The notes under the pieces: generated by a model
Database searches by the model: none
Seen by the model: only the letters and a program-made list of their open reading frames with translations
What the model was told of the DNA's origin: nothing
Shown here: positions 1,169 through 61,170 of the stretch, piece after piece
How positions within the stretch are numbered: position 1 is the stretch's first letter
Layout: each line of letters begins with the position of its first letter
Source: Pontiellaceae bacterium B12227
GTDB lineage: Bacteria; Verrucomicrobiota; Kiritimatiellia; Kiritimatiellales; Pontiellaceae
DNA length: 64,000 nucleotides
Assembly: GCA_029432775.1 (NCBI GenBank)
Contig: JAROAZ010000029.1
Span: 1-64,000 of the forward strand
Direction of reading: 5' to 3'
Made by a program: the position numbers and the translations under genes

Positions 1169-1414
1169 ATGAAAAAACCAAATCTAAAGAACAATCCCTT
1201 CATCGCCTTTCTGCTGAGCTTCCTGTTTCCAGGCATTGGAATGTTTTATCTTCAGTGCTGGAAAAAGGGATTCATCAATATCGGCATACTCGTGGTTTTA
1301 GGAATCTTCCTGAGCCGAATCGAAAACGTCCCGTTCTTCATCCCGGTCTTCATCGGTATTGCTTCCGGTGCCTGGGCCTATCTCGAAGCAGAGCAGATCA
1401 AAAGAGCCGACTGA
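1169..1414 (+). CDS. Small membrane protein, TM2/DUF5683-like
   Basis: This 81-residue protein has a short polar N-terminus (MKKPNLKNNPF), then two hydrophobic segments at about 12-30 and 38-66 separated by a basic turn (CWKKGF). The pattern AFLLSFLFPGIGMFY followed by W-K-x-G resembles the TM2 and related small membrane-protein families, whose function is not established. It lies 12 bases after ruvB on the same strand. Codons 20-25 contain a copy of the dispersed palindrome TTCCAGGCATTGGAA (1227-1241), read here as F-P-G-I-G-M. The role is unknown. Confidence 0.75.
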   Translation: MKKPNLKNNPFIAFLLSFLFPGIGMFYLQCWKKGFINIGILVVLGIFLSRIENVPFFIPVFIGIASGAWAYLEAEQIKRAD

Positions 1415-1419
1415 ACTGC

Positions 1420-2232
1420 TTACAGCAGATCTTTCAGGCTGGTGACCTTGCGCTCACCTTCGATCACCGACAGGTTTACATTGTCCACGCAGACCAGACC
1501 ATTGATATCGTCTTTAGCCGAAAATCCGTAGAGCAGATGATCGCCTCTCCACAGCGATGCTTTATCGCCCTCCAGCGCCGCATCTTTGAACGCGTGTTTT
1601 AAAACCACGTTTCCATCGGAATCCGAGAGGGTCAGATTCACTTTGAATACATTCGGCGTGGTATCCTTGAGTGCAGTCAGTTTCATATGATACCAGCTTG
1701 AGACCGCGCTGCTGCCTTCAGCTGGACGCACAACAAAGGTTTCCGCGGGAAGCTTTGGAACATTTTCCCAATGCGGCAGATTACCGCGTATCAACCAGTC
1801 ACCTGTGGGGCTGATGCCCAGACTGTAGACCCAGCGGTTGCTGACATTCAGAGACTGCTCCCCGAACAAAATCGCGATTCCGTTCTTCGCTTCATCCACG
1901 TGTCCGCCATTCAGACCGATCTGGAAATCCATTTGGAAAACGGCCGTATCGCCCGGCCTCCAGGTCACGGCGCTTTTGTTGCGATAGATTTTCATGTAGT
2001 TCTCGGCACCGCTGATCACCAGGGCTTTATCGCCCATGGTTTGCGTGATGCCCAGATGGTCAACCACGATAAAATTGCCGGCGGAAACATCCTGCCTGTC
2101 AGACCACCACCCTTGCTGCGCATGCAAAGGGCCGTCATTGTATCCATTAAACGTGCACTCCTGTGCTCGCAAAGATGATAACGAGAACAAGATAAATAGA
2201 GCAGTAATCGCGGGAAACTTTATATACTTCAT
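1420..2232 (-). CDS. Secreted jellyroll/LamG-like protein of unknown function
   Basis: The 270-residue product begins with a clear Sec signal peptide (MKYIKFPAITALFILFSLSS, cleavage after LRA-Q near residue 23). The mature part is rich in beta-type segments and resembles concanavalin/LamG-like jellyroll modules: an opening F-N-G-Y-N-D-G-P-L stretch, W-x-x-G tracts and a closing V-C-V-D-N-V-N-L strand. The N-terminal region of the GH86 enzyme at 34.9 kb has the same look. No catalytic motif is visible, so carbohydrate binding or scaffolding is only a guess. A GAGG ribosome site precedes ATG 2232. A LacI-type operator at 2295-2308, shared in form with the GH86 promoter, suggests sugar-responsive control. 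Confidence 0.7.
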   Translation of the reverse strand: MKYIKFPAITALFILFSLSSLRAQECTFNGYNDGPLHAQQGWWSDRQDVSAGNFIVVDHLGITQTMGDKALVISGAENYMKIYRNKSAVTWRPGDTAVFQMDFQIGLNGGHVDEAKNGIAILFGEQSLNVSNRWVYSLGISPTGDWLIRGNLPHWENVPKLPAETFVVRPAEGSSAVSSWYHMKLTALKDTTPNVFKVNLTLSDSDGNVVLKHAFKDAALEGDKASLWRGDHLLYGFSAKDDINGLVCVDNVNLSVIEGERKVTSLKDLL

Positions 2233-2294
2233 GCTAAAAACCTCAGTTTTACATATTGATACATCAACTCGTCTAAAAATAATTAATATCCATT

Positions 2295-2308
2295 TGTTAA
2301 CGTTATCA
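2295..2308. promoter_or_regulatory. LacI-family-like operator upstream of the secreted jellyroll gene
   Basis: TGTTAACGTTATCA is a near-perfect 14-bp palindrome (12 of 14 positions symmetric) centred on AACGTT, the typical form of LacI/GalR operators. On the minus strand its TTAACA half could serve as a -35 box, with a weak TTTAGA 17 bases on. An almost identical site overlaps the -35 of the GH86 gene at 34788-34801. Confidence 0.5.
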
Positions 2309-2318
2309 CTATAAGCAC

Positions 2319-2350
2319 AAAAAATACCACCTGTCCGATAGGACGGTGGT
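2319..2350 (-). terminator. Rho-independent terminator of the ppiC-like gene
   Basis: Read on the minus strand, an ACCACC/GGTGGT plus GTCC/GGAC stem with a one-base bulge and a TATC loop (2326-2350) is followed by six Ts. It ends transcription from the parvulin gene at 2388-2669. A TTCCA palindrome lies between the stop codon and this stem. Confidence 0.75.
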
Positions 2351-2366
2351 TTTTCGACAAAAACAG

Positions 2367-2381
2367 TTCCAGGGTCTGGAA
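2367..2381. repeat. Dispersed 15-bp palindrome (intergenic copy)
   Basis: TTCCAGGGTCTGGAA lies six bases beyond the stop codon of the parvulin gene at 2388 and before its terminator. It is one of 37 copies of TTCCARNNNYTGGAA found in the window. Confidence 0.9.
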
Positions 2382-2387
2382 AAACTT

Positions 2388-2669
2388 TTAGTCTACGCGT
2401 TTCGTGACTTCCACGAGGTGGTAGCCGAACTGCGTCTTTATTGGACCCTGTACGACACCGATCGGAGCACTGAAGACGACGGCGTCGAATTCCTTCACCA
2501 TCTGCCCCGGCTTAAACATTCCAAGCGCACCGCCCTTCTTTCCCGACGGGCACTTCGAGTGCGCCTTGGCCATTTTTGAAAAATCCACGCCCTTATCGAG
2601 CTTCTTTTTCAGATCCGCGCATTTCCTCTCTGTTTCCACCAAAATATGCCGTGCTGCTGCTGAGGCCAT
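2388..2669 (-). CDS. ppiC: Parvulin-type peptidyl-prolyl isomerase (copy 2)
   Basis: Parvulins catalyse cis-trans isomerisation of peptidyl-prolyl bonds. This single-domain 93-residue protein matches the length of E. coli PpiC (93) and keeps its landmarks: RHILV with His8, C-P-S-G around residue 40, G-A-L-G, M-V-x-E-F-D and a closing T-Q-F-G-Y-H-L. The open frame extends 29 residues upstream of ATG 2669, but MASAAARHILV aligns exactly with the neighbouring paralogue, so that start is chosen. It has no signal peptide and should be cytoplasmic. It is a tandem duplicate of the gene at 2773-3054. It is more diverged and lysine-richer (KKKLDKG, SGKKGG), which suggests specialisation. Transcription ends at the terminator at 2319-2350. 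Confidence 0.92.
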   Translation of the reverse strand: MASAAARHILVETERKCADLKKKLDKGVDFSKMAKAHSKCPSGKKGGALGMFKPGQMVKEFDAVVFSAPIGVVQGPIKTQFGYHLVEVTKRVD

Positions 2670-2714
2670 ACTGCTCTCCCGTATTGAGTTGATAAACGCC
2701 TGCCAACGGAACCA

Positions 2715-2748
2715 GGCCGGCGCAATTCGGATGGCGATTGCGCCGGCC
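2715..2748. other. Perfect 12-bp hairpin between the two parvulin genes
   Basis: GGCCGGCGCAAT (2715-2726) and ATTGCGCCGGCC (2737-2748) form a perfect stem with a 10-base loop. There is no T-run on the minus side, so it is not a standard terminator. It may stabilise the 3' end of the upstream ppiC mRNA or reduce read-through. Confidence 0.6.
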
Positions 2749-2772
2749 AGGCGCAATCACGCTTCTTCCGTG

Positions 2773-3054
2773 TTAGTCCACGCGGGCTGTGACTTCCAGG
2801 AGGTGGTAGCCGAACTGGGTTTTAACCGGGCCCTGTACTTCGCCGATCGGAGCGCTGAATACGACTTCGTCGAACTCGCGAACCATCTGGCCAGGTCCGA
2901 ATGTACCGAGCGCTCCGCCGTCGCCGCCGGACGGGCATTTGGAATGTGCTTTTGCCAGTTCTCCGAAATCGGCACCTTCATCAATCTGTTTTTTCAGGGT
3001 CAGGCAATCCGCTTCGGATGCCACTAGAATATGTCGAGCTGCTGCTGAGGCCAT
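2773..3054 (-). CDS. ppiC: Parvulin-type peptidyl-prolyl isomerase (copy 1)
   Basis: This is a cytoplasmic PpiC-like parvulin of 93 residues, the size of E. coli PpiC. His8 (RHILV), Cys40 (KCPSGG), the M-V-R-E-F-D segment and the final F-G-Y-H motif are all present, so the isomerase site looks intact. It is the first gene of a tandem pair; the downstream copy starts 103 bases later, past a strong hairpin. The start is fixed by alignment of MASAAARHILV in both copies, with a GGAGAG ribosome site just upstream. The acidic loop (EGADFGEL, SGGDGG) differs from the lysine-rich loop of copy 2. General folding help for cytoplasmic proteins is the expected role. Confidence 0.93.
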   Translation of the reverse strand: MASAAARHILVASEADCLTLKKQIDEGADFGELAKAHSKCPSGGDGGALGTFGPGQMVREFDEVVFSAPIGEVQGPVKTQFGYHLLEVTARVD

Positions 3055-3119
3055 AGGGTCTCTCCTTGGTTTGAATTAAAGATCGGAAGATGAAGGGAAA
3101 ATGGAATGATGGCAAGCCT

Positions 3120-3869
3120 TCAGACCTCCACGATATTGGGCGAGAATACCTGCCGCTCCTCTCCACGCTGGCGTACCAGATCGAGCAGCCAGTCATCGCC
3201 TTTGCGGCGATAGGTCCAGAATTCGGTAAATAACGGATCGCGCTTATCAATAATTTTTTCATCCCGGTCGACGGTCCAGTCATTGGAAAAAACATGCAGC
3301 TCAACCGTAAAATTATCGCGGTCATCGTCCAGATAGTCCTGCACCTGCATCACATTGCAACGGAGAATGCGGGTATCGGCCATGGTGTCGCGATGCCCCC
3401 GCTTCTTTGCCTTGCGGATCTTCTTGCTCCAATCCCTGAAAAGGGACGAGGTCAGCAGTGCATCGAGCGTTTCCAGATCCTGGGCGCACCACGCCTGCTG
3501 AATTTCATGGAAACTGGACTCGACGTGTTCCTTGAGCCGGCGCTCTTCCCAAACCGGATCAATGGTCATGAGATGCTTTAACAGTCTGCGGGTCCGGTTG
3601 CGCTTCCGTCGATGGCGCAGCTTCCGGATCCAGAAGAAGCAGGGCGTACTCAGCAAGATCATAACAATCAGCCAAAAAGCCCAGGCCCCGTCTCCAAAGA
3701 TTGGAATTGCGGATCCACTCCCACCCTGCCCGTATATGTAGCCACCACCGGTATAACCACCGCCGGCCCCACCCGCACCGCCGCCGGCTCCGCCTCCTCC
3801 CCCGCGCCCGAAAACCGGCGGCAGGGCATGAAGCAGAACAAACAGGATCGGAATGAGCGGACGGGCCAT
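3120..3869 (-). CDS. Gly-rich membrane protein with Tim44-like domain
   Basis: The 249-residue product has a signal or anchor segment (PLIPILFVLLHALPPVFG, about 4-21), a glycine-rich linker (about 22-58, mostly Gly with Ala and Tyr), a transmembrane helix near 70-85 (WAFWLIVMILLSTPCFFWI) and an arginine-rich stretch. The C-terminal half (about 115-240) looks like a Tim44-like domain: L-T-S-S-L-F-R-D-W, V-E-L-H-V-F, F-W-T-Y-R-R and W-L-L-D. In bacteria this fold occurs in inner-membrane proteins of uncertain job. The frame runs on upstream through the thioredoxin-like gene, but ATG 3869 starts 7 bases after that gene's stop, so the two form an operon. An imperfect palindrome copy (CTCCAAAGATTGGAA, 3692-3706) lies in the anchor region. 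Confidence 0.8.
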   Translation of the reverse strand: MARPLIPILFVLLHALPPVFGRGGGGGAGGGAGGAGGGYTGGGYIYGQGGSGSAIPIFGDGAWAFWLIVMILLSTPCFFWIRKLRHRRKRNRTRRLLKHLMTIDPVWEERRLKEHVESSFHEIQQAWCAQDLETLDALLTSSLFRDWSKKIRKAKKRGHRDTMADTRILRCNVMQVQDYLDDDRDNFTVELHVFSNDWTVDRDEKIIDKRDPLFTEFWTYRRKGDDWLLDLVRQRGEERQVFSPNIVEV

Positions 3870-3876
3870 GGTTGAG

Positions 3877-4518
3877 CTATTTTTTCGTGAACTTTTCGAT
3901 CTTCTTAATGAATTCCGGCGGGCCCCAATCCTTCTCGGCTCCACCAATCTTTCCCAGCTTTTTCCCGGATGGGGAAACAAGGTAGGTGCAGGGGAAGCCC
4001 TTGCATGGAAACTTTTTATAGAGTTCGGCGTTTTCTTCCTTCCACTCCTCGCCCTCGTCCCGATCGGAAAAGTCAGCAATATAGAAGACCAGATTCTCCT
4101 TGGCATAGGCTTTGAATTCAGACTGATCGAGCACATTATCCTCCAGCACCCGGCACCATCCGCACCAGGAAGGGGCGGTGTAGAGAAACAGAATCGGGTA
4201 GCCCAGCTCTTTTGCTTCGGCCTGGGCTTTCGAAAAATCCGAATGCCAACGCAGCGAACGATCTTTTATCGCCTGCAGTTTGAGCCGCTCCTCAATCCCG
4301 CGCTTATATTCAGCGATAAAGTCCTGATCGGCCTGCGCAAAATAGGAAATATCCAACGCATGCACTTTACGGGCACGCCCGACCTCCAGAAAAACCTTAT
4401 CCCCTGAAACCCGGATGAGTTTCGCTTCAAGCGTTTTTCCTTCGGTATTCGTCCAGACGCGTCCCTGAGCCGAACAGATGAATCCGATCGCGATCACGGC
4501 AATAGCACATTTCTTCAT
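3877..4518 (-). CDS. Exported SHD1-thioredoxin-like protein
   Basis: The 213-residue protein has a signal peptide (KKCAIAVIAIGFICSAQG). An SHD1-type module follows at about 20-68 (R-V-W-T-N-T-E-G-K-T-L-E-A ... A-D-Q-D-F-I), and then a thioredoxin-like domain at about 90-213. The active site APSWCGWCRVLEDN keeps the C-x-x-C pair, and a cis-proline equivalent sits in KGFPCTYLV. A periplasmic thiol-disulfide role is likely. A GTG two codons upstream is in frame, but ATG 4518 is preceded by a strong AGGGGGTGG site and is preferred. The Tim44-like gene follows 7 bases after its stop. A second SHD1 protein, fused to a C39-like peptidase, lies at 38708-40078. Confidence 0.88.
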   Translation of the reverse strand: MKKCAIAVIAIGFICSAQGRVWTNTEGKTLEAKLIRVSGDKVFLEVGRARKVHALDISYFAQADQDFIAEYKRGIEERLKLQAIKDRSLRWHSDFSKAQAEAKELGYPILFLYTAPSWCGWCRVLEDNVLDQSEFKAYAKENLVFYIADFSDRDEGEEWKEENAELYKKFPCKGFPCTYLVSPSGKKLGKIGGAEKDWGPPEFIKKIEKFTKK

Positions 4519-4533
4519 TCCCACCCCCTGTGG

Positions 4534-6246
4534 TTATTTCTTTCTATTCTTCAGCTGCGTCGCTCCCCCGAGTTCAGCAAAGCCGGTTTTTTCCAGATCC
4601 GTCCAGAGTGTACCTTCCCCCGCGTGAATAATGTTCAGTTTCATTTTCGGGTTCAGCTTATCCGCAAAGACCCATTTAGAATACGCCACCGGATCGCCGA
4701 AGGCCGCCGTTTTCAGCTGCAGTCCTTTGGCTATCTCACCTTCCACTTTTTCCAGTGCCGATGCATCGGCTACGCCAATCACACGCACCTTGTCCGCATT
4801 GATGGATGCGGTCGCTTTACGAATTTCGGCTTCCTTCCTGAGCGTTTCCGCCTGAATGGTGGCCACCTGCTTATCCAGATCCGCGGCAATCTCGGCCTTC
4901 AGTTTTTCGGTCTCCTGCATGACCTGCTCACCGCGCTGCTCAATCAGCGAAACCTCGGTGTTGAGCTCAGCTTCCTTACGAGCCGTGTTCTGACGCTCTT
5001 TATTCGTCAGATCCTGCTCCACGGCAATACTGGCCTGCTGGATCGGGGTGCGGATTTGATTCGGCACTTCGACGTGCCGGATCAGTGCGTTGTAGACGCG
5101 AATATCTTTTTCCCCCAGCGTTTCTTCGAGCGATTCGGTCAGGTCCTCCTGAAACTGCTCGCGGCCTTCGCCCACGATGAAATCTTTCGCCCGATACTCA
5201 GACCCTTTGTTCCGGGAGATCGAGGTAATCTGCGGCATAATGATTTTATCCACCACCGCCGGCAGGTCGCCGTAACGCCGATAGATCCCTGCAATATCGC
5301 CGGGATCGAGTTCGAACTCCAGTGTCATATCCAGGCTGATCTCAAACCCGTCGCGCGATGGAAAGCTGACGAGTTCCATCAGGTTCATTTCGCCCTCTTC
5401 CAATGAGGCCGGAGCGATGTCATGCAACTTCTTGCCGGCCTTGAAATCAACCTGCTGACCGCGTTGGGACTGAGGAGCCCACGAACTGGTGCGTTTGCTG
5501 AAATAGTCCGCGCGTTTCTTTTCCTGCTTCTGCAGCATGTTGTTCTGGAGCACATTCAGCGCCTGGCTCTGGCCCAGCTGACGCGCTTTGGTAACCACCT
5601 TGCTGCCGCCCTGTCCGAGCAGCGAAACCTGATTGATCCCGATTTCCAGCACATCCACTTTATAAGCCTGCGGATTGACATAGTAGAGCCCGGGATGCAG
5701 CACATCTTTACGAACGCCTTTCTGTTGATCGTTGGCGAACTGGCCATCCGGCGCCTGTGTTCCGGAGCGGGAGGTAATCACGCCGGCATAGCCAATCGGA
5801 ATGCTGATGGCATCCACGATCTCCACGTTGTAGCCATAGCGATTCATCCGGTATTTTCCCGGTCCCAGCACATCGCGCCAGATGCCTTTCTGTCCGCGTT
5901 CAGCAATGAACTCACCGGTCGCCAGTTTGTCGCCGACCTTTGAGGTGACGATGCCGACTTTTCCCGGATCAATGATGATGGCATCTTCGATTTTCCACTC
6001 ATAAAAGAGCGGGAAACGGAAATGACGGCCTTCACCCAGCGGTTCCTCGAGAATACCCTTTTGCCCCTCACGGGCCAGAATCTGTCCCTCATCCAGCGGA
6101 TCGCCGACTTTGGCGGTAATGATGGCCATTTCATTGGGGCCCACATAGAAACGGCAGAAGCCCCAGACAAACATGGTGGTCAGTCCCCCGCCGACAAACA
6201 GGACCGTAAGTAATAAACCTATAATTGCTTTGGTAGAGATTTTCAT
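4534..6246 (-). CDS. SPFH/band 7 membrane protein (second of a coupled pair)
   Basis: The 570-residue protein has one N-terminal membrane helix (about 8-30), then three tandem copies of a roughly 55-residue unit built on G-x-V/M-x-I-x-T-x-K-V-G-D-x-L-x-x-G and Q-K-G-I (starting near 37, 93 and 153). An SPFH/band 7 region follows at about 280-400, and then a long charged coiled coil (about 405-500) rich in Glu, Gln and Lys. Band 7 proteins oligomerise on membranes and organise microdomains or protease complexes. Its ATG overlaps the stop of the upstream paralogue (ATGA, 6243-6246), so translation is probably coupled and the two may form a hetero-oligomer. No partner protease is seen nearby. 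Confidence 0.85.
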   Translation of the reverse strand: MKISTKAIIGLLLTVLFVGGGLTTMFVWGFCRFYVGPNEMAIITAKVGDPLDEGQILAREGQKGILEEPLGEGRHFRFPLFYEWKIEDAIIIDPGKVGIVTSKVGDKLATGEFIAERGQKGIWRDVLGPGKYRMNRYGYNVEIVDAISIPIGYAGVITSRSGTQAPDGQFANDQQKGVRKDVLHPGLYYVNPQAYKVDVLEIGINQVSLLGQGGSKVVTKARQLGQSQALNVLQNNMLQKQEKKRADYFSKRTSSWAPQSQRGQQVDFKAGKKLHDIAPASLEEGEMNLMELVSFPSRDGFEISLDMTLEFELDPGDIAGIYRRYGDLPAVVDKIIMPQITSISRNKGSEYRAKDFIVGEGREQFQEDLTESLEETLGEKDIRVYNALIRHVEVPNQIRTPIQQASIAVEQDLTNKERQNTARKEAELNTEVSLIEQRGEQVMQETEKLKAEIAADLDKQVATIQAETLRKEAEIRKATASINADKVRVIGVADASALEKVEGEIAKGLQLKTAAFGDPVAYSKWVFADKLNPKMKLNIIHAGEGTLWTDLEKTGFAELGGATQLKNRKK

Positions 6247-7757: not shown

Positions 7758-7779
7758 CCCCAACCTCCTGTTATTTTGT

Positions 7780-7794
7780 TTCCAAGGATTGGAA
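7780..7794. repeat. Dispersed 15-bp palindrome in the divergent promoter region
   Basis: TTCCAAGGATTGGAA lies between the divergently transcribed SPFH operon (start 7757) and the adenylate kinase gene (start 7932). The remainder of this 174-base gap is AT-rich and shows no other structure. Confidence 0.9.
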
Positions 7795-7931
7795 AAAAGG
7801 TTAGCACGCCCCTTTCAGGCCGCCACTATTAATTCCTCTGAAAATTATAATCGGCCCTCTTATTTGACGGATTAGTAAATTGCAATGTTCAGCCCCACTC
7901 TCTAGCCTCTAAGAAATCAAAAAGGGGTAAA

Positions 7932-13620: not shown

Positions 13621-15051
13621 ATGAAAAACACGGACTACATTGCGGGAAGAGGCAGGGAAAAGGCGATTCTCCAACAACTTACGGAGTCGGCGGATGCCGA
13701 GTTGCTGGCGGTTTATGGTCGCAGGCGCGTGGGGAAAACCTTTCTCATCACGCGCTATTTCAGCAAGTTTGCCTTTGAGTTCACGGGCACCAAAGACCTT
13801 CCTGTAAAACAGCAGCTGGCCAACTTTGCCAGCGCCTTTGGCTGCAAAGAAACTCCCCCCAACTGGCAAGCGGCGTTTCTACTTCTTCGCAAAAAGCTGG
13901 AGAAATCCAAGTCCCGACGGAAACAGGTGGTTTTTTTTGACGAACTTCCGTGGATTGCGTCACGCCGTTCCGGCTTCCTCCCGGCCTTCGAGCATTTCTG
14001 GAACAGCTGGGGTTCCCGCCAAAGCAACCTGCTTTTCATTATCTGCGGGTCAGCGGCGGCATGGATGATCAAACGGGTTATCCACGACAAAGGCGGCCTC
14101 CACGGGCGCGTTACCCGTACCATGCAATTGGCCCCCTTCAATCTTCACGAAACCCACGAATACCTCCGCCGGCGGGGCTTCCCGGACAACCCATTCCAGA
14201 CCTTGGAACTCTATATGGCGATGGGCGGCATTCCGCACTATCTGCATCAGGCGCAGCCCCACCTTTCCGCCGCCCAGAACATCGACGCGCTTTGCTTTGA
14301 ACCAGGCGCGCCATTGCGCGACGAGTTCAACGAAATCTACGCATCGCTATTCGAAAACCATGAACGCCACCTGCAAATCATCCGGGCACTCGCCAAGGTG
14401 CAGCAAGGACTGTCCCGCGTCGAAATCCAGAAAAAGACAAAGTTGAGAACGGGCGGAACGCTGACCCAGACTCTGGAAGAGCTAAACCGTTCGGGCTTCA
14501 TCGGCATCACAATCCCCTTCGGACGCACCCAGCGCGACGCCCTTTATCGCCTGACCGATGAATTCTCCCTCTTCCACCAGCGCTGGATCCACGGGAAAAA
14601 GCAGCCCGAAGGCGGCGGCAACCATTGGCTGCAGCTACGCCCCACCCCGCGCTGGAATACCTGGAGCGGATTTGCGTTCGAGAATGTTTGCCTCAAGCAC
14701 GTACGCCAAATCAAGGCCGCACTCGGCATTGCCTCCCTACAGACCGAATCGTCCGCATGGCGCCACCAGCCAAAATCAACCCAAGAAAAGGGCGCGCAGA
14801 TCGACTTGCTTATCGACCGCGCTGATGGCGTGGTCAACCTCTGCGAAATGAAATACTCAGCAGCCCCTTTCGCCATTACAAAGAAATACGCGGAAGAGCT
14901 CCGCAACAAGCTGCAGGTTTTTCAATCCGCCACCAAAACGCGAAAGGCGCTGTTCCTGACCATGGTCACCACCAATGGCCTCGCGGACAATGCTTACAGT
15001 CAGGAACTCGTAAATAGCCGCTTAGAAATTGGATCGCTCTTCGAGTCTTGA
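13621..15051 (+). CDS. AAA ATPase with C-terminal PD-(D/E)xK-like domain (COG1672/DUF234 type)
   Basis: The 476-residue protein belongs to the ATPase_2-type P-loop ATPases found as orphan, patchily distributed genes. Walker A VYGRRRVGKTFL is at about 32-42, Walker B VVFFDELPW at about 103-111 and a sensor-like I-I-C-G-S near 140. A winged-helix segment (SRVEIQKKTKLRTGGTLTQT) lies near 265-285. The C-terminal domain shows D-L-L-I-D near 394 and C-E-M-K near 409, the I-D/E-x-K arrangement of restriction-like nucleases. Two copies of a 50-bp hairpin lie upstream, the second touching the ATG, and one follows the stop by 27 bases. The gene with its hairpins looks like a self-contained unit. Its function is unknown. 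A DUF4143 ATPase of related design is at 55131. Confidence 0.85.
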   Translation: MKNTDYIAGRGREKAILQQLTESADAELLAVYGRRRVGKTFLITRYFSKFAFEFTGTKDLPVKQQLANFASAFGCKETPPNWQAAFLLLRKKLEKSKSRRKQVVFFDELPWIASRRSGFLPAFEHFWNSWGSRQSNLLFIICGSAAAWMIKRVIHDKGGLHGRVTRTMQLAPFNLHETHEYLRRRGFPDNPFQTLELYMAMGGIPHYLHQAQPHLSAAQNIDALCFEPGAPLRDEFNEIYASLFENHERHLQIIRALAKVQQGLSRVEIQKKTKLRTGGTLTQTLEELNRSGFIGITIPFGRTQRDALYRLTDEFSLFHQRWIHGKKQPEGGGNHWLQLRPTPRWNTWSGFAFENVCLKHVRQIKAALGIASLQTESSAWRHQPKSTQEKGAQIDLLIDRADGVVNLCEMKYSAAPFAITKKYAEELRNKLQVFQSATKTRKALFLTMVTTNGLADNAYSQELVNSRLEIGSLFES

Positions 15052-29442: not shown

Positions 29443-29817
29443 ATGGCAAAGAAACTCATACAACTGACCGCCCGCGATATTATTCTGCAGGCCGATGCTG
29501 AAACGATCCGCGAAGCGTTCGAAGCGCGCGTTAAGATCGACGAACTGCTCGTAAAACGCGAGGAAGCCTACCGCCAGATCGAAGAGATCGAGCTACAGGT
29601 GGAAGGTCTCGTTGGCGAAGAAGGCGCATTCGTTTATCCGGAACCGCCCGTCCCCGTTGCTGGATTCAGCAAGCCGGCTCCCGCATCCCGCCCGAAGCCC
29701 AAGGTGGCCAAGCCGGAACCGGAAGTGATCGAAGAAGAGATCGTTGAGGAAGAGGTTGAAGAAGCCGTCGAAGCGGAAGCCGAAGAAACGGCTGAAGAAG
29801 AAACCAAGGAAAAGTGA
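29443..29817 (+). CDS. Small coiled-coil protein with acidic tail
   Basis: I do not recognise this 124-residue protein. The first 50 residues form an amphipathic helix (KIDELLVKREEAYRQIEEIE) ending V-E-G-L-V-G-E-E-G-A-F. A Pro-rich linker (about 62-88) follows, and then a tail made mostly of Glu, Val and Ala (about 90-124). The helix and the following G-E-x ... Y-P-x-x-P-P segment resemble the start of the next gene (EREDRLVEIFDLERQINGIL, then G-G-E-P-Y-P-L-A-P-P), so the two look like diverged paralogues. It lies 21 bases after the helical-repeat gene. Its stop codon is part of a GTGA-word dyad. Confidence 0.7.
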   Translation: MAKKLIQLTARDIILQADAETIREAFEARVKIDELLVKREEAYRQIEEIELQVEGLVGEEGAFVYPEPPVPVAGFSKPAPASRPKPKVAKPEPEVIEEEIVEEEVEEAVEAEAEETAEEETKEK

Positions 29818-29868
29818 GCCGTGAAACGTGAGTCGTGATTATCACGCCTCAATCGTCACTCTTCACTC
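29814..29868. repeat. Word-repeat dyad (GTGA/TCAC) overlapping a stop codon
   Basis: The left half GTGAGCCGTGAAACGTGAGT repeats the GTGA word and the right half repeats its complement (ATCACGCCTC, CGTCACTCTTCACTC). Its first TGA is the stop codon of the preceding gene. Much of it matches 27899-27960 (shared AAACGTGAG and CAATCGTCACTC). Confidence 0.78.
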
Positions 29869-29871
29869 CCT

Positions 29872-30315
29872 ATGAACAACCAGATCCAGATTAATCAGAA
29901 GCTCATGGAGCGCGAAGATCGCCTGGTCGAAATATTCGACCTGGAACGGCAGATCAACGGCATCCTTGGCGGCGAGCCCTATCCGCTCGCGCCGCCGGAT
30001 ACCCTGCCCTCGCGACAGAAGCGGAAGAAGCCCAAGCGTAAAGCGGCCCCGAAAAAGGCCGCCCCGCTGCGCGTGCGCAAACTGGATCCCGAAACCGAGT
30101 CGGCCTACCGAATCGAATATCAGCAGAACGACGAAACCTGCGTTGAGATCCACACCGATCCGCGCCCCCTCGCGCTCCTGCTCAACACCCCGCTTCCAAC
30201 CCTTGGAATCCAGCGTCTCGAAACTGTTCAGGCGACAGACGACGGCGAATGGAACACGGTGGAAACACTCTTCGAAGCCGTGCCCGCCTTAGATATAGCG
30301 CAGTCCGTGGCGTAG
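29872..30315 (+). CDS. Small basic coiled-coil protein of unknown function
   Basis: The 147-residue protein starts with a helix (QINQKLMEREDRLVEIFDLE) related to that of the gene upstream. A Pro segment, a strongly basic patch (RQKRKKPKRKAAPKKAAPLR, about 47-66) and an alpha/beta-like C-terminal part follow. The basic patch suggests nucleic-acid binding. No known domain was recognised. It is the last gene of the ftsK-led run on this strand. A palindrome copy (30194-30208) is read as L-P-T-L-G-I. The 86-bp repeat element begins within its last codons and overlaps the stop region. Confidence 0.65.
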   Translation: MNNQIQINQKLMEREDRLVEIFDLERQINGILGGEPYPLAPPDTLPSRQKRKKPKRKAAPKKAAPLRVRKLDPETESAYRIEYQQNDETCVEIHTDPRPLALLLNTPLPTLGIQRLETVQATDDGEWNTVETLFEAVPALDIAQSVA

Positions 30316-30392
30316 ACGAAGCATCCTGCTTCGCTTGATTGATCAATACGCCTTGCTCATTCCTAACGGAGCTGGAAGCTCCGTCTACATTG
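30307..30392. repeat. 86-bp hairpin element, copy A (intergenic)
   Basis: The element runs from GTGGCGTAGACG to CGTCTACATTG, with GTAGACG/CGTCTAC inverted ends and two inner hairpins: GAAGC/GCTTC at the left and GGAGCT/AGCTCC at the right. It overlaps the 3' end of the gene at 29872 and the gap before tatD. Copy B lies 123 bases on in the same orientation, with equal length and about five differences. Confidence 0.92.
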
Positions 30393-30396
30393 GTCA

Positions 30397-31233
30397 CTAG
30401 AAACTGAAGAACCGCACGGCGTTGGCGAACGTTAGCTCGGCAAGGGCCTCTTCTGAAATGCCGCGGAATTCGGCGGCCTTCGCGAGAACGAGGCGGACGT
30501 TGGCCGGTTCGTTCAGTGGCGTAGACGAAGCATCCTGCTTCGTTTGATCGATCAATACGCCTTGCTCATTCTCAACGGAGCTGGAAGCTGCGTCTACATT
30601 GTGCGGAAGAATATCGGGTGCATCGGTTTCGATGAGGATCCGGTCGTCGGGCACGGCGCGGATGGCGGGACCGGCTTTGCGCGCATTGGGCCGGGTGATG
30701 GATCCGGAAAAGGAAATGTAGGCCCCGCGCTTTACGAGCTCGGTGGCAATCTCGGCGGAACCGCCGAAGCAATGAATGAGCATACCGCGCGGCAGCTCAC
30801 CGAACTGATCAAGCAGTTCAATTAAACGCCCCCACGCGCGGCGGCAATGGATGGAGGCCGGGCGGTCGAGCTTTCGGGCGAGTTCCATCTGCTGCAGAAA
30901 CACCTTTTCCTGATCGGCATCGTCGCGCTCCTCAATGGCGTGGTCGATTCCGATTTCGCCGACAGCGGCGGAGGGATATTCGGTCAGGAGTGTTTCCAAT
31001 GTCTGGAACCAGCCGGCTGAGCGGTCGGCAATAAACCACGGATGCAGGCCGAACGAGGGATAGGTTCCGGGGTAGGTTTCCATGATCTGGATAACTCTGG
31101 GCCAATCGTCTTCACAACAGCCCTTCACCCCCATTTTGACCACGCCGGCATCTGCGGCACGCTTCATCACCTTTCCAAGGTCTGGAAACAGCCGATCGTC
31201 CTGCACGTGGTTATGGGCATCGAAGAGTTCCAT
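30397..31233 (-). CDS. TatD-family metal-dependent hydrolase with a repeat-derived insertion
   Basis: TatD proteins are amidohydrolase-fold nucleases or deacylases. Metal ligands are present: F-D-A-H-N-H at the start, G-E-I-G-I-D near 92, S-I-H-C-R-R near 130, M-L-I-H-C-F near 154 and I-E-T-D-A-P-D near 200. After D-I-L-P-H-N a segment of 28 residues (VDAASSSVENEQG...) is encoded by an 86-bp repeat element (30516-30601), and the normal N-E-P-A-N-V sequence resumes after it. The reading frame is kept. The insertion lies in a loop where TatD proteins vary, so the enzyme may remain active. ATG 31233 follows GGAGG; a TTG two codons earlier is less likely. Two palindrome copies (30994, 31173) lie in the gene. 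Confidence 0.88.
   Translation of the reverse strand: MELFDAHNHVQDDRLFPDLGKVMKRAADAGVVKMGVKGCCEDDWPRVIQIMETYPGTYPSFGLHPWFIADRSAGWFQTLETLLTEYPSAAVGEIGIDHAIEERDDADQEKVFLQQMELARKLDRPASIHCRRAWGRLIELLDQFGELPRGMLIHCFGGSAEIATELVKRGAYISFSGSITRPNARKAGPAIRAVPDDRILIETDAPDILPHNVDAASSSVENEQGVLIDQTKQDASSTPLNEPANVRLVLAKAAEFRGISEEALAELTFANAVRFFSF
30516..30601. repeat. 86-bp hairpin element, copy B (inside tatD)
   Basis: Same length and orientation as copy A (30307-30392), with about five substitutions and no indels. It is translated within the TatD-family gene as an extra 28-residue loop. Confidence 0.92.
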
Positions 31234-42180: not shown

Positions 42181-42972
42181 ATAGTCTGGACCATCGCCGG
42201 CTCCGATTCCGGCGGCGGTGCCGGCATCCAGGCCGACCTGAAAGTCATGAGCGCCTTTGGCGTTCACGGATGCTCGGTCACCACCGCCCTCACCGCCCAG
42301 AACACAAAAGGCGTACTGTTTTCCGAACCTGTTTCTCCTGAAATGCTGCGCGTACAGTTCCAGGCATTGGAAACCGATCTTCCACCGGCCGCCATCAAAA
42401 CCGGTATGCTCGGATCAGCGGCTTCCTGCAGCATCGTCGCAGACATTTTCCAAACATTGGAAGTTCCGATTATTTGCGATCCGGTGCTGAAATCCACCTC
42501 CGGCTCCGACCTGCTCGACCCCGAAGCATTGAATATCCTGAAAACCCGGATTTTTCCAAAGGTTGGAATTCTGACGCCGAATCTTCCAGAGGTTGGAAAA
42601 CTCATCGGCAATTTCCAAACATTGGAAGAAGCGGCCGAACGAATACTCACGCTCGGTGTACAATCCGTACTGATCAAAGGCGGGCATGCTGAACATGATG
42701 AATGCACCGATTTCTGGAGCGACGGAACCCGGTCGCTCCGGCTTTCCAGTCCCCGCATCGATACCCGGCATTCTCACGGAACCGGCTGCATTCTTGCATC
42801 GGCCCTGGCCTCGGCCCTTGCGCTCGGCCAGGACCTGCCCAATGCGGTGAGTACCGCGAAAACCTTTCTGAATCAGTGCCTTAAATCGCCCGCAAATGTG
42901 GGCCGGGGTCATGGCCCCATGCTGATCCGACCCTTCGAAAACCGCGAAATAGACCGTCCAACAATCCGCTAA
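42181..42972 (+). CDS. thiD: Hydroxymethylpyrimidine (phospho)kinase, start codon unclear
   Basis: ThiD phosphorylates HMP and HMP-P in thiamine synthesis. Family sequence begins at [13 protein letters not shown] (42187 on), and C-D-P-V-L-K-S, L-T-P-N-L-P-E, the lysine in I-K-G-G-H and H-S-H-G-T-G-C are in place. The first ATG in frame (42247) would remove the substrate-binding N-terminus. Upstream of it the frame is open to 42127 but offers no ATG, GTG or TTG. The codons before TGG are ATA GTC, preceded by the CAATC repeat arm, so the true start is non-canonical (ATA 42181 or ATC 42169) or has been lost. Five palindrome copies lie within 270 bases (42358-42627). Confidence 0.85.
42358..42627. 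repeat. Cluster of five 15-bp palindromes inside thiD
   Basis: Copies at 42358, 42448, 42554, 42584 and 42613. They are read as F-Q-A-L-E, F-Q-T-L-E, P-K-V-G, P-E-V-G and F-Q-T-L-E, so two reading frames are used. The last three lie within 74 bases. Confidence 0.92.
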
Positions 42973-47160: not shown

Positions 47161-47263
47161 ATTGCCGATTTCTGATTGCCGATTGCCGATTGGTCGGTCT
47201 GCGACAGCCTTAGAAAAAATAAGGTCAACGCCGCTTGAATTCCACAAATCGGCAATCAAAAAT
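47161..47263. repeat. Word-repeat dyad (GATTG/CAATC) before the methyltransferase gene
   Basis: The left arm ATTGCCGATTTCTGATTGCC, continuing GATTGCCGATTGG (47161-47193), repeats GATTGCC three times. The right arm AAATCGGCAATCAAAAAT (47246-47263) is its complement. The arms are 52 bases apart. The words are the same as at 42059-42180. Confidence 0.75.
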
Positions 47264-54094: not shown

Positions 54095-54134
54095 GTTTTG
54101 CTTCCAGACCTTGAAAAAAAGCCGTACATTCGGC

Positions 54135-54149: not shown

Positions 54150-54164
54150 ATCAGGAGAAAGCTC

Positions 54165-56285: not shown

Positions 56286-56330
56286 GCACACACATATACA
56301 CGCACGCACCGCCACTGAAAAGCGTTTATT

Positions 56331-56344
56331 GTTGAATATTCGAC
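56331..56344. promoter_or_regulatory. Imperfect palindrome between the DUF4143 ATPase and hemL
   Basis: GTTGAATATTCGAC is symmetric at 12 of 14 positions and lies in the AT-rich 194-base gap (56286-56479) that must hold both promoters. It could be an operator for either gene. No other structure is seen in the gap. Confidence 0.35.
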
Positions 56345-56479
56345 ATCTTATATCGAAATTTATACGTTAAGTCGTTTTACTATCGCGCGCATTGTCACGT
56401 TTAAGGATTGGATTCGGCGGGCGCCATAGCCCATTATGCTTGGTTTTCAGCGAAATTATTACCGAACAGGAAGCAGGTT

Positions 56480-57742: not shown

Positions 57743-57755
57743 ACCGACATCCTTT

Positions 57756-57824
57756 AGTCGAAGGTCGGAGTGTCCAAAGTCAAAGGTTGCCGACTTTCGA
57801 CCTGCGACCTTCAGACCTTTGACC
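57756..57824. repeat. Word-repeat dyad (AGGTC/GACCT) between hemL and endonuclease V
   Basis: The left half reads AGTCGAAGGTCGGAGTGTCC and AAAGTCAAAGG; the right half CGACTTTCGACCTGCGACC and TTCAGACCTTTGACC is its imperfect complement. It shares 20 identical bases (57800-57819) with the dyad at 50941-51011 and the same word order throughout. Confidence 0.8.
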
Positions 57825-57833
57825 AAATACATC

Positions 57834-58478
57834 ATGCATGCTTGGGATGTCAGCCCGAAGGAAGCAGTAAAGATCCAGCGCGCGCTGCAGGATCACGTTC
57901 GGCTTGAGGATGACTTCGGCGAGATTAAAACCGTCGCCGGCGTTGATGTCGGCTTCGAAAAAAATAATACCATCACCCGCGCGGCCATTGTCGTACTGGA
58001 TTTCCAAACTCTGGAAGTTTTAGAATCGGCGGTCGCTCATCATCCGACCTCCTTCCCCTATATTCCGGGGCTGCTGTCTTTCCGGGAAGTGCCCTGCGTA
58101 TTGGAAGCCATGCTGAAACTGAGTGCCCAACCCGATCTGCTGTTGTGCGACGGACAGGGCATTGCGCACCCCCGCCGTTTCGGGATCGCCGCTCACCTTG
58201 GACTATTGCTGGATATCCCCGCTGTTGGTGTCGGAAAATCGCGTCTCTGCGGCACACATGATGAGGTGCCGGAAACCAAAGGTTCTTTTGTTCCGCTGAT
58301 GGATAAAGACGAACAAATCGGCGTGGTCCTCCGCACCCGCGCGAACGTTAAACCGCTGTACATTTCGCCCGGCCACCGCGTTTCCATTGAGACCGCCCCC
58401 AAGCTCGTCATGAAATGCATCACAAAATACAAACTGCCCGAAACCACGCGCCACGCGCATAAACTCGCCAGTGGCTAA
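57834..58478 (+). CDS. nfi: Endonuclease V
   Basis: Endonuclease V cuts DNA near deaminated bases such as deoxyinosine. The 214-residue product has the catalytic Asp in A-G-V-D-V-G-F (about 40-46), the block L-L-L-C-D-G-Q-G-I-A-H-P-R-R-F-G-I-A-A-H-L-G (about 102-123) with the second metal Asp and the P-R pair, and V-G-V-G-K-S-R-L. Its length is normal. ATG 57834 lies ten bases after the repeat dyad and no strong ribosome site is visible. Its stop overlaps by four bases the end of the convergent rhuM pseudogene. A palindrome copy (58002-58016) is read as F-Q-T-L-E. Confidence 0.95.
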   Translation: MHAWDVSPKEAVKIQRALQDHVRLEDDFGEIKTVAGVDVGFEKNNTITRAAIVVLDFQTLEVLESAVAHHPTSFPYIPGLLSFREVPCVLEAMLKLSAQPDLLLCDGQGIAHPRRFGIAAHLGLLLDIPAVGVGKSRLCGTHDEVPETKGSFVPLMDKDEQIGVVLRTRANVKPLYISPGHRVSIETAPKLVMKCITKYKLPETTRHAHKLASG

Positions 58479-59514
58479 TCAGAATACCCGGGCTTAGGGT
58501 CCACTGCTTTGACAATACGATCAAAGTCACTCTCAAAGAGGCGATCCTTAACGATGCGGTATTTTTCGAATTCGCTCTCCGCATGGCTTTTTGCCAACTC
58601 GGCACTGACTCGGCCACTGTCCAGCAGAACATTCCGGTCATCGAATTCCAGAAAAAAATCCAGCCGTTTTGCCCAATCTTCCATCGTCATCGGTATTTTC
58701 CGCCGAGCGCGGTCCTCGGCCAAATCAAGATAGGCATTCACAATGCGCCCCAAAGAATCGAGCTCATCCTTGGTTAGATAGTTTTTAGCCACGACACATC
58801 TGATTTCAAAATTTTTCCGTTCGGCGCTTTTTCCCACGAAGTCAGCCCCATATTCTTCTTTTCGCTATCCGCCCGCTCAGCAATCAGCTCGCCGGCGGTG
58901 TGCCCATGAATAGCATAATGCAATTTGTTCTGCACTTTGGCGAAAAAGGTCCGGGTGGTTGGGGCATCTTTGTTGTAATCCATGCTGGAGGCATAAATGT
59001 TGGTGATTTTCTGATAGAATCGGCGTTCGCTGAGGCGGATTTCCGGGATTTCCTCCAAAAGGCGCTCGAAATAGTCCTCGTCCAGAAATGAACCGTTCTC
59101 CATCCGCTGCTTATCAAGAACATAGCCGCGGATCGCAAAATCGCGCAGTACCTGCGTGGCCCACTGACGGAACTGGGTTGCCCGCACAGAATTAACAACA
59201 CGATATCCCACCGAAATAATGGCGTCGAGGTTGTAGAAATCGATATTCCGGCCGACCTCCCGGCTGCCCTCCATTTGAACTATCCGGAATTTCCGGATAG
59301 TTGCCCCCGCCTCGATCTCTCCTGACGCATATATATTTTTCAAGTGCTCGTTAACGGTTCGGACATCCACCTCAAAAAGCGTGGCCATCAGCTTCTGCGA
59401 AAGCCAGACGGTTTCGTCCTCGTAGCGCGCCTCGATCGACTGCTCCCCCGTCTGTCCGGTGAAAACCAGGAATTCAGCGGTCGAATTACGTATCCGTTTT
59501 TTCTGCTCTCCCAT
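58475..59514 (-). pseudogene. rhuM: RhuM-family protein, frameshifted
   Basis: RhuM proteins are found next to restriction systems and pathogenicity islands; their function is unclear. The first part (58774-59514) encodes the family N-terminus with A-R-Y-E-D-E-T-V-W-L-S-Q, the R-N-I-D-F-Y-N-L-D-A-I-I-S-V-G-Y-R-V block and reaches G-K-I-L-K-S-D-V-S, then runs out of frame and stops. The rest continues in another frame (58475 to about 58795) as V-A-K-N-Y-L-T-K-D-E-L ... E-F-E-K-Y-R-I-V-K-D-R-L-F. The join at about 58790-58797 lacks one base against the expected S-V-A-K. It is a pseudogene, or the reading carries a sequencing error. No other restriction gene is intact nearby. Confidence 0.88.
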
Positions 59515-59521
59515 TACAGCC

Positions 59522-59706
59522 TCAAAGATATTCTTTCATGATCGCTTCTTTCTTCGCCAGGGCGGCATCAATAACCGCCTGCGCATCGCGCATTTTTTCC
59601 TTTTCACTATTCTCATAACTCAAACTCAAACACTTCTTGCCGGAAAGATGAACGAAGTGAAAATAAAAGAATCCAAAGCATTGGGTCAGTTTTCGGGAGC
59701 AGCGTA
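59522..59706 (-). other. Possible gene fragment upstream of rhuM
   Basis: The minus strand is open from about 59706 down to a stop at 59522-59524. The last 23 codons, from ATG 59593, read M-R-D-A-Q-A-V-I-D-A-A-L-A-K-K-E-A-I-M-K-E-Y-L, a convincing helical protein end just seven bases before the rhuM start. The codons before it (F-H-F-V-H-L-S-G-K-K-C-L-S-L) are less protein-like. It may be the tail of a gene lost from a former rhuM-linked restriction locus. The rest of the 190-base gap shows nothing else. Confidence 0.35.
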
Positions 59707-61170
59707 TCAGGCATGCAATAGAATTCGGTCGACGCGGGCGATCTCGAAGGTGCGGCGGGGCCTGGAATCGAGATTGACAATAGACATGGATACGCCTTCG
59801 TCCTGCGTCGTTTTTTTCAGCGCAATCAGGAAGCCGAGGCCCGCACTATCAATAAAGTCCAGCTGGGCGGCATCGACCTCGACGGTTTTCAGCGCACCTT
59901 TTCCCTTGAGCTCATGATGCACCACGGCGGCATCCCGCTCGAACGAGGGCAGAGTTGCAGCCGTCAGCTCAATCGGAAGCTCCAGTTTCAGCGCACCTTC
60001 ATCAAAGGCCGTTGCCCCTGCCACATGCTCAGTGAGATTTTCTGCAATATGCTTCACCTCATCCAGCATGGTGGCGGTGTCAAAATAATCGCTTAAGCGG
60101 CAGGTACCGAGCAACCGCCGGACCTTCGGGCGGGGCGCATAGAGAATCAGGCGTTTCCCCCACTGACGGCAGAATTTATTCACTTCCAGCAGCGCGCCGA
60201 GTTCAAGACTGTTGAGCCAGGGCGCTGCGTGCACGTCTAGCAGCAGGTTTTTTCCCTGCGCGAACCCATCAATCCGTTTCACAAACTCTGCGGCTGCAGC
60301 TTCGTTTTCCAAGGGTTGGAAACGCTCGACGGCCACTCCACATTCCTCCAACGTCTGGAGATCGGCCGGCTCCAGCGACTGAAAGGACGTGGGAATATCG
60401 CGCATTTTATGAATCTGAACCATCTGGCGGGATGCGGAAAAAAGAAAACGCACATTCGCCAGATAGCGGGCAAACAGACGGCGTGGATTGCAGCAGATTC
60501 GCCAGAGTCCTTCCATGCAGCATTTCTGCATCAGTTCCGGCGCACGCTTCTGATCGCCGGTAATAAAGTCGAGCGAGGCCCCCACGCCCATGGCCACCGG
60601 CACATTCCAGCCGCGCACATGCATGCTGATGAATTTGTCCTGCTTGGGCGCTCCGAAAGCCACAAACAGAATATCGGGCTTCGTCTTTTCCAGTTCCTGG
60701 AGTATTTCCCGATGGTCCATCTCCAACAGCTCGGCGAACGGCGGCGAATAGGTTCCGGCAATTTTGAGGTTCGGATGGCGCTCTTTCAATAGTTCGAGCG
60801 CTTTTTCAGCCACTCCGGCCGCACCTCCGAGGCCATAGATGCTCATGCCCTCTTTCGCCGCACGTTCGGCCAGCATGGGGGTAAGATCGGACCCGGTTAC
60901 CCGCCCTTTTAACTCTGGGCCGAAAAACGGGGAGAGCTTGACCACAGGAAACCCATCGGCCAGAACCAGATCCGCATCAATCAAAATACGCTGCAGCTCG
61001 GGGTCGTGCCAGGCCTGAGTCACAAAGTCGAGGTTGGCCGTCGCAATATTCGCCGGCCGGCCGGAGCGCACGCGGTCCACAATCCAGTCCACGGCTTCCT
61101 CAAACGTAACGTTGTGAAACGGTACGCCATAGATGACCAGTGGAATCGGGGTGGAGCCGTCAATTTGCAT
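59707..61170 (-). CDS. WecG/TagA/CpsF glycosyltransferase fused to STAS domains
   Basis: The 487-residue protein starts with a complete WecG/TagA/CpsF glycosyltransferase (about 10-245): T-A-N-L-D-F-V-T-Q-A near 44, L-A-D-G-F-P-V-V near 70, R-V-T-G-S-D-L-T near 89 and the block F-V-A-F-G-A-P-K-Q-D-K-F-I near 167. These enzymes add N-acetylmannosamine-type sugars to lipid-linked acceptors. A short linker follows, then two STAS-like domains (about 285-385 and 395-487); the second has V-D-A-A-Q-L-D-F-I-D-S-A-G-L-G-F-L, the site of anti-sigma-factor antagonists. A wall-polymer enzyme tied to stress-signalling domains is uncommon. One palindrome copy (60307-60321) and one two-mismatch copy (60346-60360) lie in it. 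Confidence 0.85.
   Translation of the reverse strand: MQIDGSTPIPLVIYGVPFHNVTFEEAVDWIVDRVRSGRPANIATANLDFVTQAWHDPELQRILIDADLVLADGFPVVKLSPFFGPELKGRVTGSDLTPMLAERAAKEGMSIYGLGGAAGVAEKALELLKERHPNLKIAGTYSPPFAELLEMDHREILQELEKTKPDILFVAFGAPKQDKFISMHVRGWNVPVAMGVGASLDFITGDQKRAPELMQKCCMEGLWRICCNPRRLFARYLANVRFLFSASRQMVQIHKMRDIPTSFQSLEPADLQTLEECGVAVERFQPLENEAAAAEFVKRIDGFAQGKNLLLDVHAAPWLNSLELGALLEVNKFCRQWGKRLILYAPRPKVRRLLGTCRLSDYFDTATMLDEVKHIAENLTEHVAGATAFDEGALKLELPIELTAATLPSFERDAAVVHHELKGKGALKTVEVDAAQLDFIDSAGLGFLIALKKTTQDEGVSMSIVNLDSRPRRTFEIARVDRILLHA

Follow-up and report, generated by a model that had tools for sequence, protein, structure and literature searches.

What keeps a long palindrome in place, nearly letter for letter, at many positions along a bacterial chromosome? 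The question arises in Pontiellaceae bacterium B12227, where a stretch of 64,000 bases on contig 128 (the window) contains scattered copies of the 15-bp palindrome TTCCARNNNYTGGAA, first noticed in a sequence-only reading of this DNA. The genome of the window, here called G000 (6.29 Mb, 206 contigs), was assigned to Pontiella in the class Kiritimatiellia because it belongs to the same genus as Pontiella sulfatireligans F21 (G021) and Pontiellaceae bacterium B12219 (G009). The palindromes are probably read by a dimeric protein that assembles cooperatively along a single face of the helix and organizes the chromosome.

The palindrome and its distribution

The exact pattern occurred 38 times in the window (Table 1), and 100 dinucleotide shuffles gave a mean of 0.04 copies and at most 1. 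All 37 start positions listed by the sequence-only reading were correct, and the copy at 14194 had been overlooked. Genome-wide, TTCCARNNNYTGGAA was found 2106 times in G000, compared with 3 copies of a reversed-pattern control. Arm spacings from 0 to 15 other than 5 yielded 0 or 1 copy each in the window, where all 38 occurrences of TTCCA-N5-TGGAA carried R..Y at the inner positions. The same inner positions were present in 236 of 253 occurrences over 664 kb of G000, in which the sites followed the pattern tTTCCAR(t)S(a)YTGGAAa and 228 of the 236 had a central C or G. One-mismatch forms were scarce in these 664 kb, except for TTCCGR and changes of the outermost base. When the left half was intact, the right half was intact in 236 cases and had one mismatch in 88, compared with 10 at a shifted control position.

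The inner positions varied independently of each other, the R/Y combinations in the window being AT (20), AC (9), GT (8) and GC (1). Such independence is expected of two half-sites read by two subunits rather than of a paired stem, and a hairpin or terminator was rejected because the inner positions do not co-vary. The same independence bears on the idea that a mobile or dispersed repeat, of the repetitive extragenic palindrome (REP), bacterial interspersed mosaic element (BIME) or miniature inverted-repeat transposable element (MITE) kind, spread the palindrome by copying. Local copying does happen, since two arrays in another genome (G057) have a common spacer sequence. REP and BIME elements are marked by a pairing stem-loop, an extragenic position and a common repeat body, but here the inner R/Y are not paired as in a REP stem, the flanks in the window are unrelated by eye and in column composition, and most sites in G000 are intragenic and use all frames. 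The N positions also drift at orthologous loci, and we regard spread by copying as extremely improbable. Dispersed repeats of the genus are present in the window at 29814-29868, 30311-30389, 30520-30600, 42189-42305 and 47167-47260; these five short stretches matched many places in six other Pontiella genomes at ~70-100% identity, some on both strands. No inverted repeats of at least 20 bp were reported within 29700-30700, and the window had no Rfam matches.

In a sample of the phylum, enrichment of the palindrome is confined to the class Kiritimatiellia and is patchy within it. The sample comprised 387 genomes, 130 of them in this class; at least 50 sites were found in 35 of the 130, the remaining 95 had at most 17, and the highest count outside the class was 16. 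Within the genus, genomes had as few as 1 and as many as 2106 sites, with counts in between, and the cultured P. sulfatireligans F21 had 673 sites. Site density on contig 11 of G000 was at most about half that of the other contigs read, and this contig contained six site-free stretches of 14-24 kb with a G+C content of 0.48-0.57, which are possibly recent acquisitions.

Sites in genes, in gaps and at orthologous positions

By simple, unreviewed gene calls, 29 of the sites in the window lay within predicted genes, 8 lay outside and 1 was straddling. Over the 664 kb of G000, 173 of 236 sites were in predicted genes, where they were spread evenly from start to stop and used frames 0, 1 and 2 in 75, 55 and 43 cases. 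Coding sequences held 172 sites in 594,645 nt, an 8-fold excess over 40 synonymous-codon shuffles (mean 21.5, maximum 28). The sequence-only reading had claimed that the copies are mostly genic, use all frames and reflect a constraint on DNA, all of which is borne out by these numbers, and it was right that ruvB (29-1156) has no copy. It had also named two outcomes that would count against it, a genome-wide number close to the shuffled expectation and enrichment of one peptide motif in one frame; the number was far above expectation and all frames were used. A peptide-motif origin was rejected on the grounds of the three frames and the excess over synonymous shuffles. The palindrome is thus in excess over chance in genes and gaps alike, as is characteristic of the HIP1 type (highly iterated palindrome 1 of cyanobacteria). 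A contig of G036 read as ribosomal-protein genes had 0 sites in 18.2 kb where ~4.5 were expected from the count for the whole genome, a comparison that is confounded by protein constraint. On viral contig L333 (7607-7846), the palindrome is encoded by a VPKFGT-type peptide repeat in steps of 36-60 bp, which may be a coincidence of repeat coding.

Site density in G000 was 3.2 times as high outside genes as inside. Gaps between co-directional, divergent and convergent genes carried 0.99, 0.73 and 1.37 sites per kb, respectively, and convergent gaps were at least as rich in sites as divergent gaps in five of five genomes (small counts). Non-coding density was 47 times the coding density in G048 and 69 times in G057, with 40 of 47 and 28 of 30 sites in the fetched stretches lying outside genes; several of the G057 stretches had been picked because sites were already listed there. 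The use of three frames, the synonymous excess and the gap-type densities together point to a constraint that acts at the DNA level and has no link to promoters. The pattern is that of selection on sites independent of coding and promoters, and repair-driven restoration is compatible with the same data. Operators of a global transcription regulator would explain a palindromic dimer site and the higher densities outside genes in G000, G048 and G057. However, about three quarters of the G000 sites are genic and even from start to stop, and convergent gaps, which are expected to lack promoters, carry at least as many sites per kb as divergent ones. There is no preference for promoter gaps, and an operator function is very improbable.

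Conservation was assessed by aligning 20 kb of the window to related genomes, and aligned sites containing gaps were left out of the counts. The defined positions were retained at 7 of 9 sites in G001, 7 of 8 in G002 and 6 of 8 in G009, compared with 14.7, 7.1 and 14.1% of control windows. Comparison at aligned positions had been proposed in the sequence-only reading as a check, and with 20 of 25 sites retained in the three relatives against 7-15% of control windows it came out in favor of conservation. Identity in the close relatives was 96-97% at the fixed positions and 75-92% at the N positions. For example, site 46305 is TTCCAGGGTTTGGAA in the window and TTCCAACGATTGGAA in G009. As judged from these alignments, the arms are under selection or active repair.

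Repair is central to a HIP1-like alternative, in which methylation of a core like CCA-N5-TGG would let biased mismatch repair create and protect the longer palindrome with no functional selection. A motif that is palindromic, iterated, present in all frames and strongly clade-dependent matches Elhai's model of HIP1 as given in the available part of that account (PMC4390886), and repair-driven restoration could likewise conserve sites. However, CCA-N5-TGG without either outer dinucleotide was found 156 times compared with ~201 expected for CCA-N5-TGG of all kinds, so the core is not enriched unless it bears an outer TT or AA. The methylase core was rejected, as it has no enrichment on its own.

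Table 1. Copies of the palindrome in the window, with their state at aligned positions in relatives
Copy	Positions	Strand	Match	Remarks
TTCCAGGCATTGGAA	1227..1241	.	exact	
TTCCAGGGTCTGGAA	2367..2381	.	exact	intergenic
TTCCAAGGATTGGAA	7780..7794	.	exact	intergenic
TTCCAACCTCTGGAA	9926..9940	.	exact	intergenic
TTCCAGACCTTGGAA	14194..14208	.	exact	absent from sequence-only reading
TTCCAAGCATTGGAA	16861..16875	.	exact	
TTCCAATCATTGGAA	21155..21169	.	exact	intergenic
TTCCAAACCTTGGAA	22394..22408	.	exact	intergenic
TTCCAGGCGTTGGAA	22768..22782	.	exact	
TTCCAATGACTGGAA	23357..23371	.	exact	
TTCCAAAGATTGGAA	26811..26825	.	exact	
TTCCAAAGACTGGAA	29274..29288	.	exact	retained in G001, G009, G027
TTCCAACCCTTGGAA	30194..30208	.	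exact	retained in G009, N letters differing; lost in G001
TTCCAATGTCTGGAA	30994..31008	.	exact	retained in G009; one mismatch in G001; lost in G005, G027
TTCCAAGGTCTGGAA	31173..31187	.	exact	retained in G001, G009
TTCCAAAGATTGGAA	32588..32602	.	exact	retained in G001; one mismatch in G009
TTCCAGGCCTTGGAA	34516..34530	.	exact	retained in G001, G002, G021, G027
TTCCAATGCCTGGAA	35093..35107	.	exact	
TTCCAACCATTGGAA	35468..35482	.	exact	
TTCCAATCACTGGAA	37090..37104	.	exact	
TTCCAATGGTTGGAA	37159..37173	.	exact	
TTCCAATGACTGGAA	37751..37765	.	exact	
TTCCAGGCATTGGAA	42358..42372	.	exact	phosphomethylpyrimidine kinase gene; retained in G002
TTCCAAACATTGGAA	42448..42462	.	exact	phosphomethylpyrimidine kinase gene; retained in G002
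TTCCAAAGGTTGGAA	42554..42568	.	exact	cluster 42554-42627 (30- and 29-bp steps), member 1; retained in G002
TTCCAGAGGTTGGAA	42584..42598	.	exact	same cluster, member 2; lost in G002
TTCCAAACATTGGAA	42613..42627	.	exact	same cluster, member 3; retained in G002
TTCCAATCCTTGGAA	44289..44303	.	exact	retained in G001, G002, G009
TTCCAGGGTTTGGAA	46305..46319	.	exact	retained in G001, G009, G021 with other N letters
TTCCAAACATTGGAA	47421..47435	.	exact	retained in G001, G002
TTCCAATCATTGGAA	50013..50027	.	exact	intergenic
TTCCAGGGATTGGAA	51490..51504	.	exact	
TTCCAATCATTGGAA	52193..52207	.	exact	gene edge
TTCCAATCATTGGAA	54135..54149	.	exact	intergenic
TTCCAATGGTTGGAA	54710..54724	.	exact	
TTCCAATGTTTGGAA	55547..55561	.	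exact	
TTCCAAACTCTGGAA	58002..58016	.	exact	
TTCCAAGGGTTGGAA	60307..60321	.	exact	

Helical spacing of neighbouring sites

Neighbouring sites were helically phased in several lineages. In G032, neighbours at most 160 bp apart were separated by 22, 32, 42, 42, 53, 63, 73, 74, 83, 83, 84 and 135 bp, and a Rayleigh test at 10.5 bp gave R = 0.91 (p = 4.6e-5). Pairs 35-64 bp apart were searched in seven genomes of the sister family, five of which were counted only; pairs were listed for G032 (33 of 33) and G042 (42 of 54). All 75 of the pairs listed fell at 40-43, 50-54 or 62-64 bp, and the 18 other bins were empty. At 85-114 bp, 41 of 42 pairs in G037 fell in clusters at 92-96, 103-106 and 113-114 bp; the clusters were set after the data were seen, and outside them 9.4 pairs were expected by chance and 1 was observed. 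Out-of-phase near neighbours are avoided in G037. The combined best period in the sister family was 10.43 bp (n = 134, 35-114 bp).

A step of three turns was frequent in other genomes. The fetched stretches of G048 and G057 contained 22 and 18 neighbour pairs, respectively, at 31 or 32 bp, and G048 also had spacings of 62 and 65 bp. The arrays listed for G104, G402 and Lentisphaerae bacterium GWF2_57_35 (G201) had steps of 31 or 32 bp, and those listed for G134 and G148 had steps of 22, 30 and 31 bp. G028 represents a different genus of the family to which G000 belongs; of its 50 listed pairs, from a total of 271, 42 were 30-32 bp apart. Close pairs were in excess in G000 as well, with 108 pairs at 22-51 bp compared with ~21 calculated by chance. 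G047 had 6 canonical sites but 85 copies of TTMCAGCNGCTGKAA (control 0), a pattern that the 37 remaining genomes searched had 0 to 4 times. The majority of the copies listed for G047 form arrays with a 31-bp step, and the canonical pattern and TTMCAGCNGCTGKAA overlap at TTCCAGCNGCTGGAA. The letters in G047 have changed and the geometry is the same, as might be left by a binding protein with shifted specificity.

Neither helical spacing nor intergenic arrays with steps of 31 or 32 bp would be expected from point repair. Together with the lack of core enrichment, this disfavors the HIP1-like repair bias that the sequence-only reading had offered as one option, and we consider it quite unlikely. 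A self-recognition signal, for DNA uptake or nuclease protection, would be kept as related site-bearing DNA is taken up or spared. Such a signal would fit a motif that is dense, clade-specific and both genic and intergenic, and it would fit the rarity of arrays on viral contigs (13 stretches among 2.9 million contigs). However, it leaves the phased arrays unexplained and does not require the avoidance of out-of-phase neighbours in G037; to our knowledge, the uptake sequences of Haemophilus and Neisseria are neither palindromic nor phased. A role in self-recognition is unlikely. Phased arrays on viral contigs L325 (2786-2946 and 4899-5075), L324 (3034-3164) and L330 (650-767) sit upstream of genes read as terminase.

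Scattered palindromic marks are a hallmark of Noc and SlmA, and the palindrome could in principle mark a dedicated segregation or division-site system like these, MatP or ParB-parS. Approximately 2000 sites are far above the tens of copies that serve Noc, SlmA, MatP and parS, and the number of ParB-family proteins does not track the motif. Moreover, no regional restriction was visible in 20 sampled segments of G032, which held 0-10 sites per 20 kb with a variance over mean of 2.4. Only a small chance is left to a dedicated system of this kind.

Candidate proteins, the proposed fibre and known systems

Candidate binding proteins were compared with the occurrence of the motif. Lrp/AsnC proteins, mostly single-copy, were present in 49 of 54 class genomes, and the five without a match were all motif-poor. 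Three of 60 loci were dropped from the comparison for want of a protein (G015, G112 and G104), of which G112 and G104 kept another copy. The helix-turn-helix of Lrp was near-identical in motif-rich G009 and motif-poor G018, Lrp similarity was equal in motif-poor and motif-rich Pontiella, and the recognition helix varied among motif-rich families. The architecture of Lrp/AsnC fits, but neither its occurrence nor its recognition helix tracks the motif, so it is unlikely to be the binder. ParB-family proteins were found in 32 of 35 genomes, with one in most and several in some motif-rich and some motif-poor genomes, and none was found in motif-rich G002, G034 and G037. An extra ParB/Noc paralogue was rejected as the binder, as the numbers do not follow the motif.

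An order-specific ribbon-helix-helix-like protein of 60 amino acids (G000 contig 111, 83061-83243) was 100% identical in G000, G001 and G009, where the aligned DNA was mostly 67-92% identical. It occurred in 1 to 6 copies in 24 of 55 genomes (Pontiellaceae and the sister family), was not found in the other 31, and had a weak, below cut-off Pfam match that is NikA-like. By its profile this protein is not the binder, as it is present in motif-poor G004 and G018 and was not found in motif-rich G048, G057 and G134. The protein was also found on a viral contig that bears an array of six sites, and viral contig L325, one of those with phased arrays, encodes a homologue. Visual inspection of the small basic proteins encoded in ~1.5 Mb of fetched sequence gave no further candidate. 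Elsewhere on contig 111 (89125-89520), G000 encodes a protein with a long KKAPAKK-type tail that is histone-H1-like in look.

We favor a nucleoid-organizing protein that reads phased sites. A homodimeric DNA-binding protein, present in many copies per cell, would bind the palindrome with one subunit per half-site TTCCAR-N-S, and bound dimers would contact neighbouring dimers on the same helix face, ~2 to 11 turns apart. Such contacts would build a nucleoprotein fibre in phase with the helix along the chromosome, or would wrap or loop the DNA, and the whole would constitute a sequence-specific, chromatin-like nucleoid-organizing system of the class Kiritimatiellia. We infer a single protein, its abundance, the cooperative contact and a chromosome-organizing role, which may be compaction, segregation or occlusion. 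The sequence comparisons indicate that the sites are under constraint and, in several lineages, are read on one helix face. A nucleoid-organizing protein fits better than HIP1-like repair, uptake or promoter control. The three options of the sequence-only reading, among them an uptake signal, were in sum partly supported; the one that fared best was a chromosome-wide site for a nucleoid or segregation protein, with orthologous conservation, drift of N letters, independent halves and phasing in relatives in its favor.

Several observations weigh against a phased nucleoid-organizing protein. No binder was found, and Lrp/AsnC, ParB and the ribbon-helix-helix-like protein do not follow site counts. 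At 85-114 bp, the 12 pairs of G031 showed modest phasing (R = 0.57, p = 0.019), and phasing of the 5 pairs of G032 did not reach significance (R = 0.52, p = 0.26). In G000, phasing was weak among the 25 listed of the 108 close pairs (R = 0.33, p = 0.067) and among neighbours at most 160 bp apart over 664 kb (R = 0.26, p = 0.14). Some of the counted pairs enclose a third site, which makes part of the counts dependent on one another. The 20 sampled segments of G032 showed no origin-terminus pattern. Conservation was low in other Pontiella (0 of 12 sites in G005, 2 of 8 in G021 and 2 of 6 in G027), which implies a large turnover of sites, and the scarcity of the motif in most sampled class genomes implies that its role is dispensable or replaceable.

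A more specific proposal is a bacterial chromatin code, in which thousands of exact palindromes, in genes and gaps alike, have a spacing tied to the helical repeat, out-of-phase neighbours are avoided, a protein builds a phased fibre along the chromosome, and the letters are free to change between lineages, as in G047, under an unchanged geometry; it may hold, at somewhat less than an even chance. If a protein does assemble on phased sites in coding sequence, bacteria would possess a chromosome fibre encoded in their DNA sequence, and this fibre would have shaped their proteins.

Known systems resemble the Kiritimatiellia palindrome in part. SeqA is oligomeric and needs a pair of GATC sites that face the same side of the helix and lie no more than about three turns apart, a likeness in geometry, but its site is methylation-dependent, has 4 bp and is not a long exact palindrome. 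Noc, SlmA, MatP and parS marks are palindromes scattered over the chromosome, which a dedicated protein recognizes; unlike the Kiritimatiellia sites, these marks number in the tens, are regionally restricted and not helically spaced. EbfC/YbaB of Borrelia is a nucleoid-associated protein with a short broken palindrome (GTnAC) genome-wide; its site is very short, and helical phasing is unmentioned in the available part of that report (PMC9610160). Lrp/AsnC site clusters, such as those of Ss-LrpB (TTGCAAAATTTGCAA), are 15-bp palindromes that are bound cooperatively and wrap DNA, according to the accessible excerpts (PMC2995911, PMC4046817). The Kiritimatiellia motif can likewise be read as 5-bp arms around a 5-bp centre in helically phased clusters, strongly so in the relatives and weakly in G000. 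Unlike Lrp/AsnC clusters, it has thousands of near-exact chromosomal copies, and Lrp of the class is present with or without the motif and has no matching change in the recognition helix.

Text searches of a library of papers with six spellings of the motif gave no occurrence, and nothing listed there on Kiritimatiellota palindromes, HIP-type palindromes, the isolates or phased nucleoid sites was recognized as the TTCCARNNNYTGGAA motif. No literature match is recognized for the Kiritimatiellia palindrome, and in kind it is comparable to HIP1. HIP1 (GCGATCGC, a sequence other than TTCCARNNNYTGGAA) is palindromic, has very many copies, is patchy in its clade and is of unsettled function, as the available part of its account describes it (PMC4390886). 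The Kiritimatiellia motif is similarly palindromic, highly copied and clade-patchy, but it is longer and split, with a free centre, and no enriched methylase-type core was seen. Also unlike HIP1, its relatives show helical phasing and arrays, and orthologous sites are kept while their centres drift. HIP1 is the best known of these palindromes and lacks an agreed explanation; here a comparable genome-wide palindrome carries a physical signature in relatives of G000. Helical spacing, conserved orthologous sites and a genome that has other letters in the same geometry make the purpose of such palindromes directly testable.

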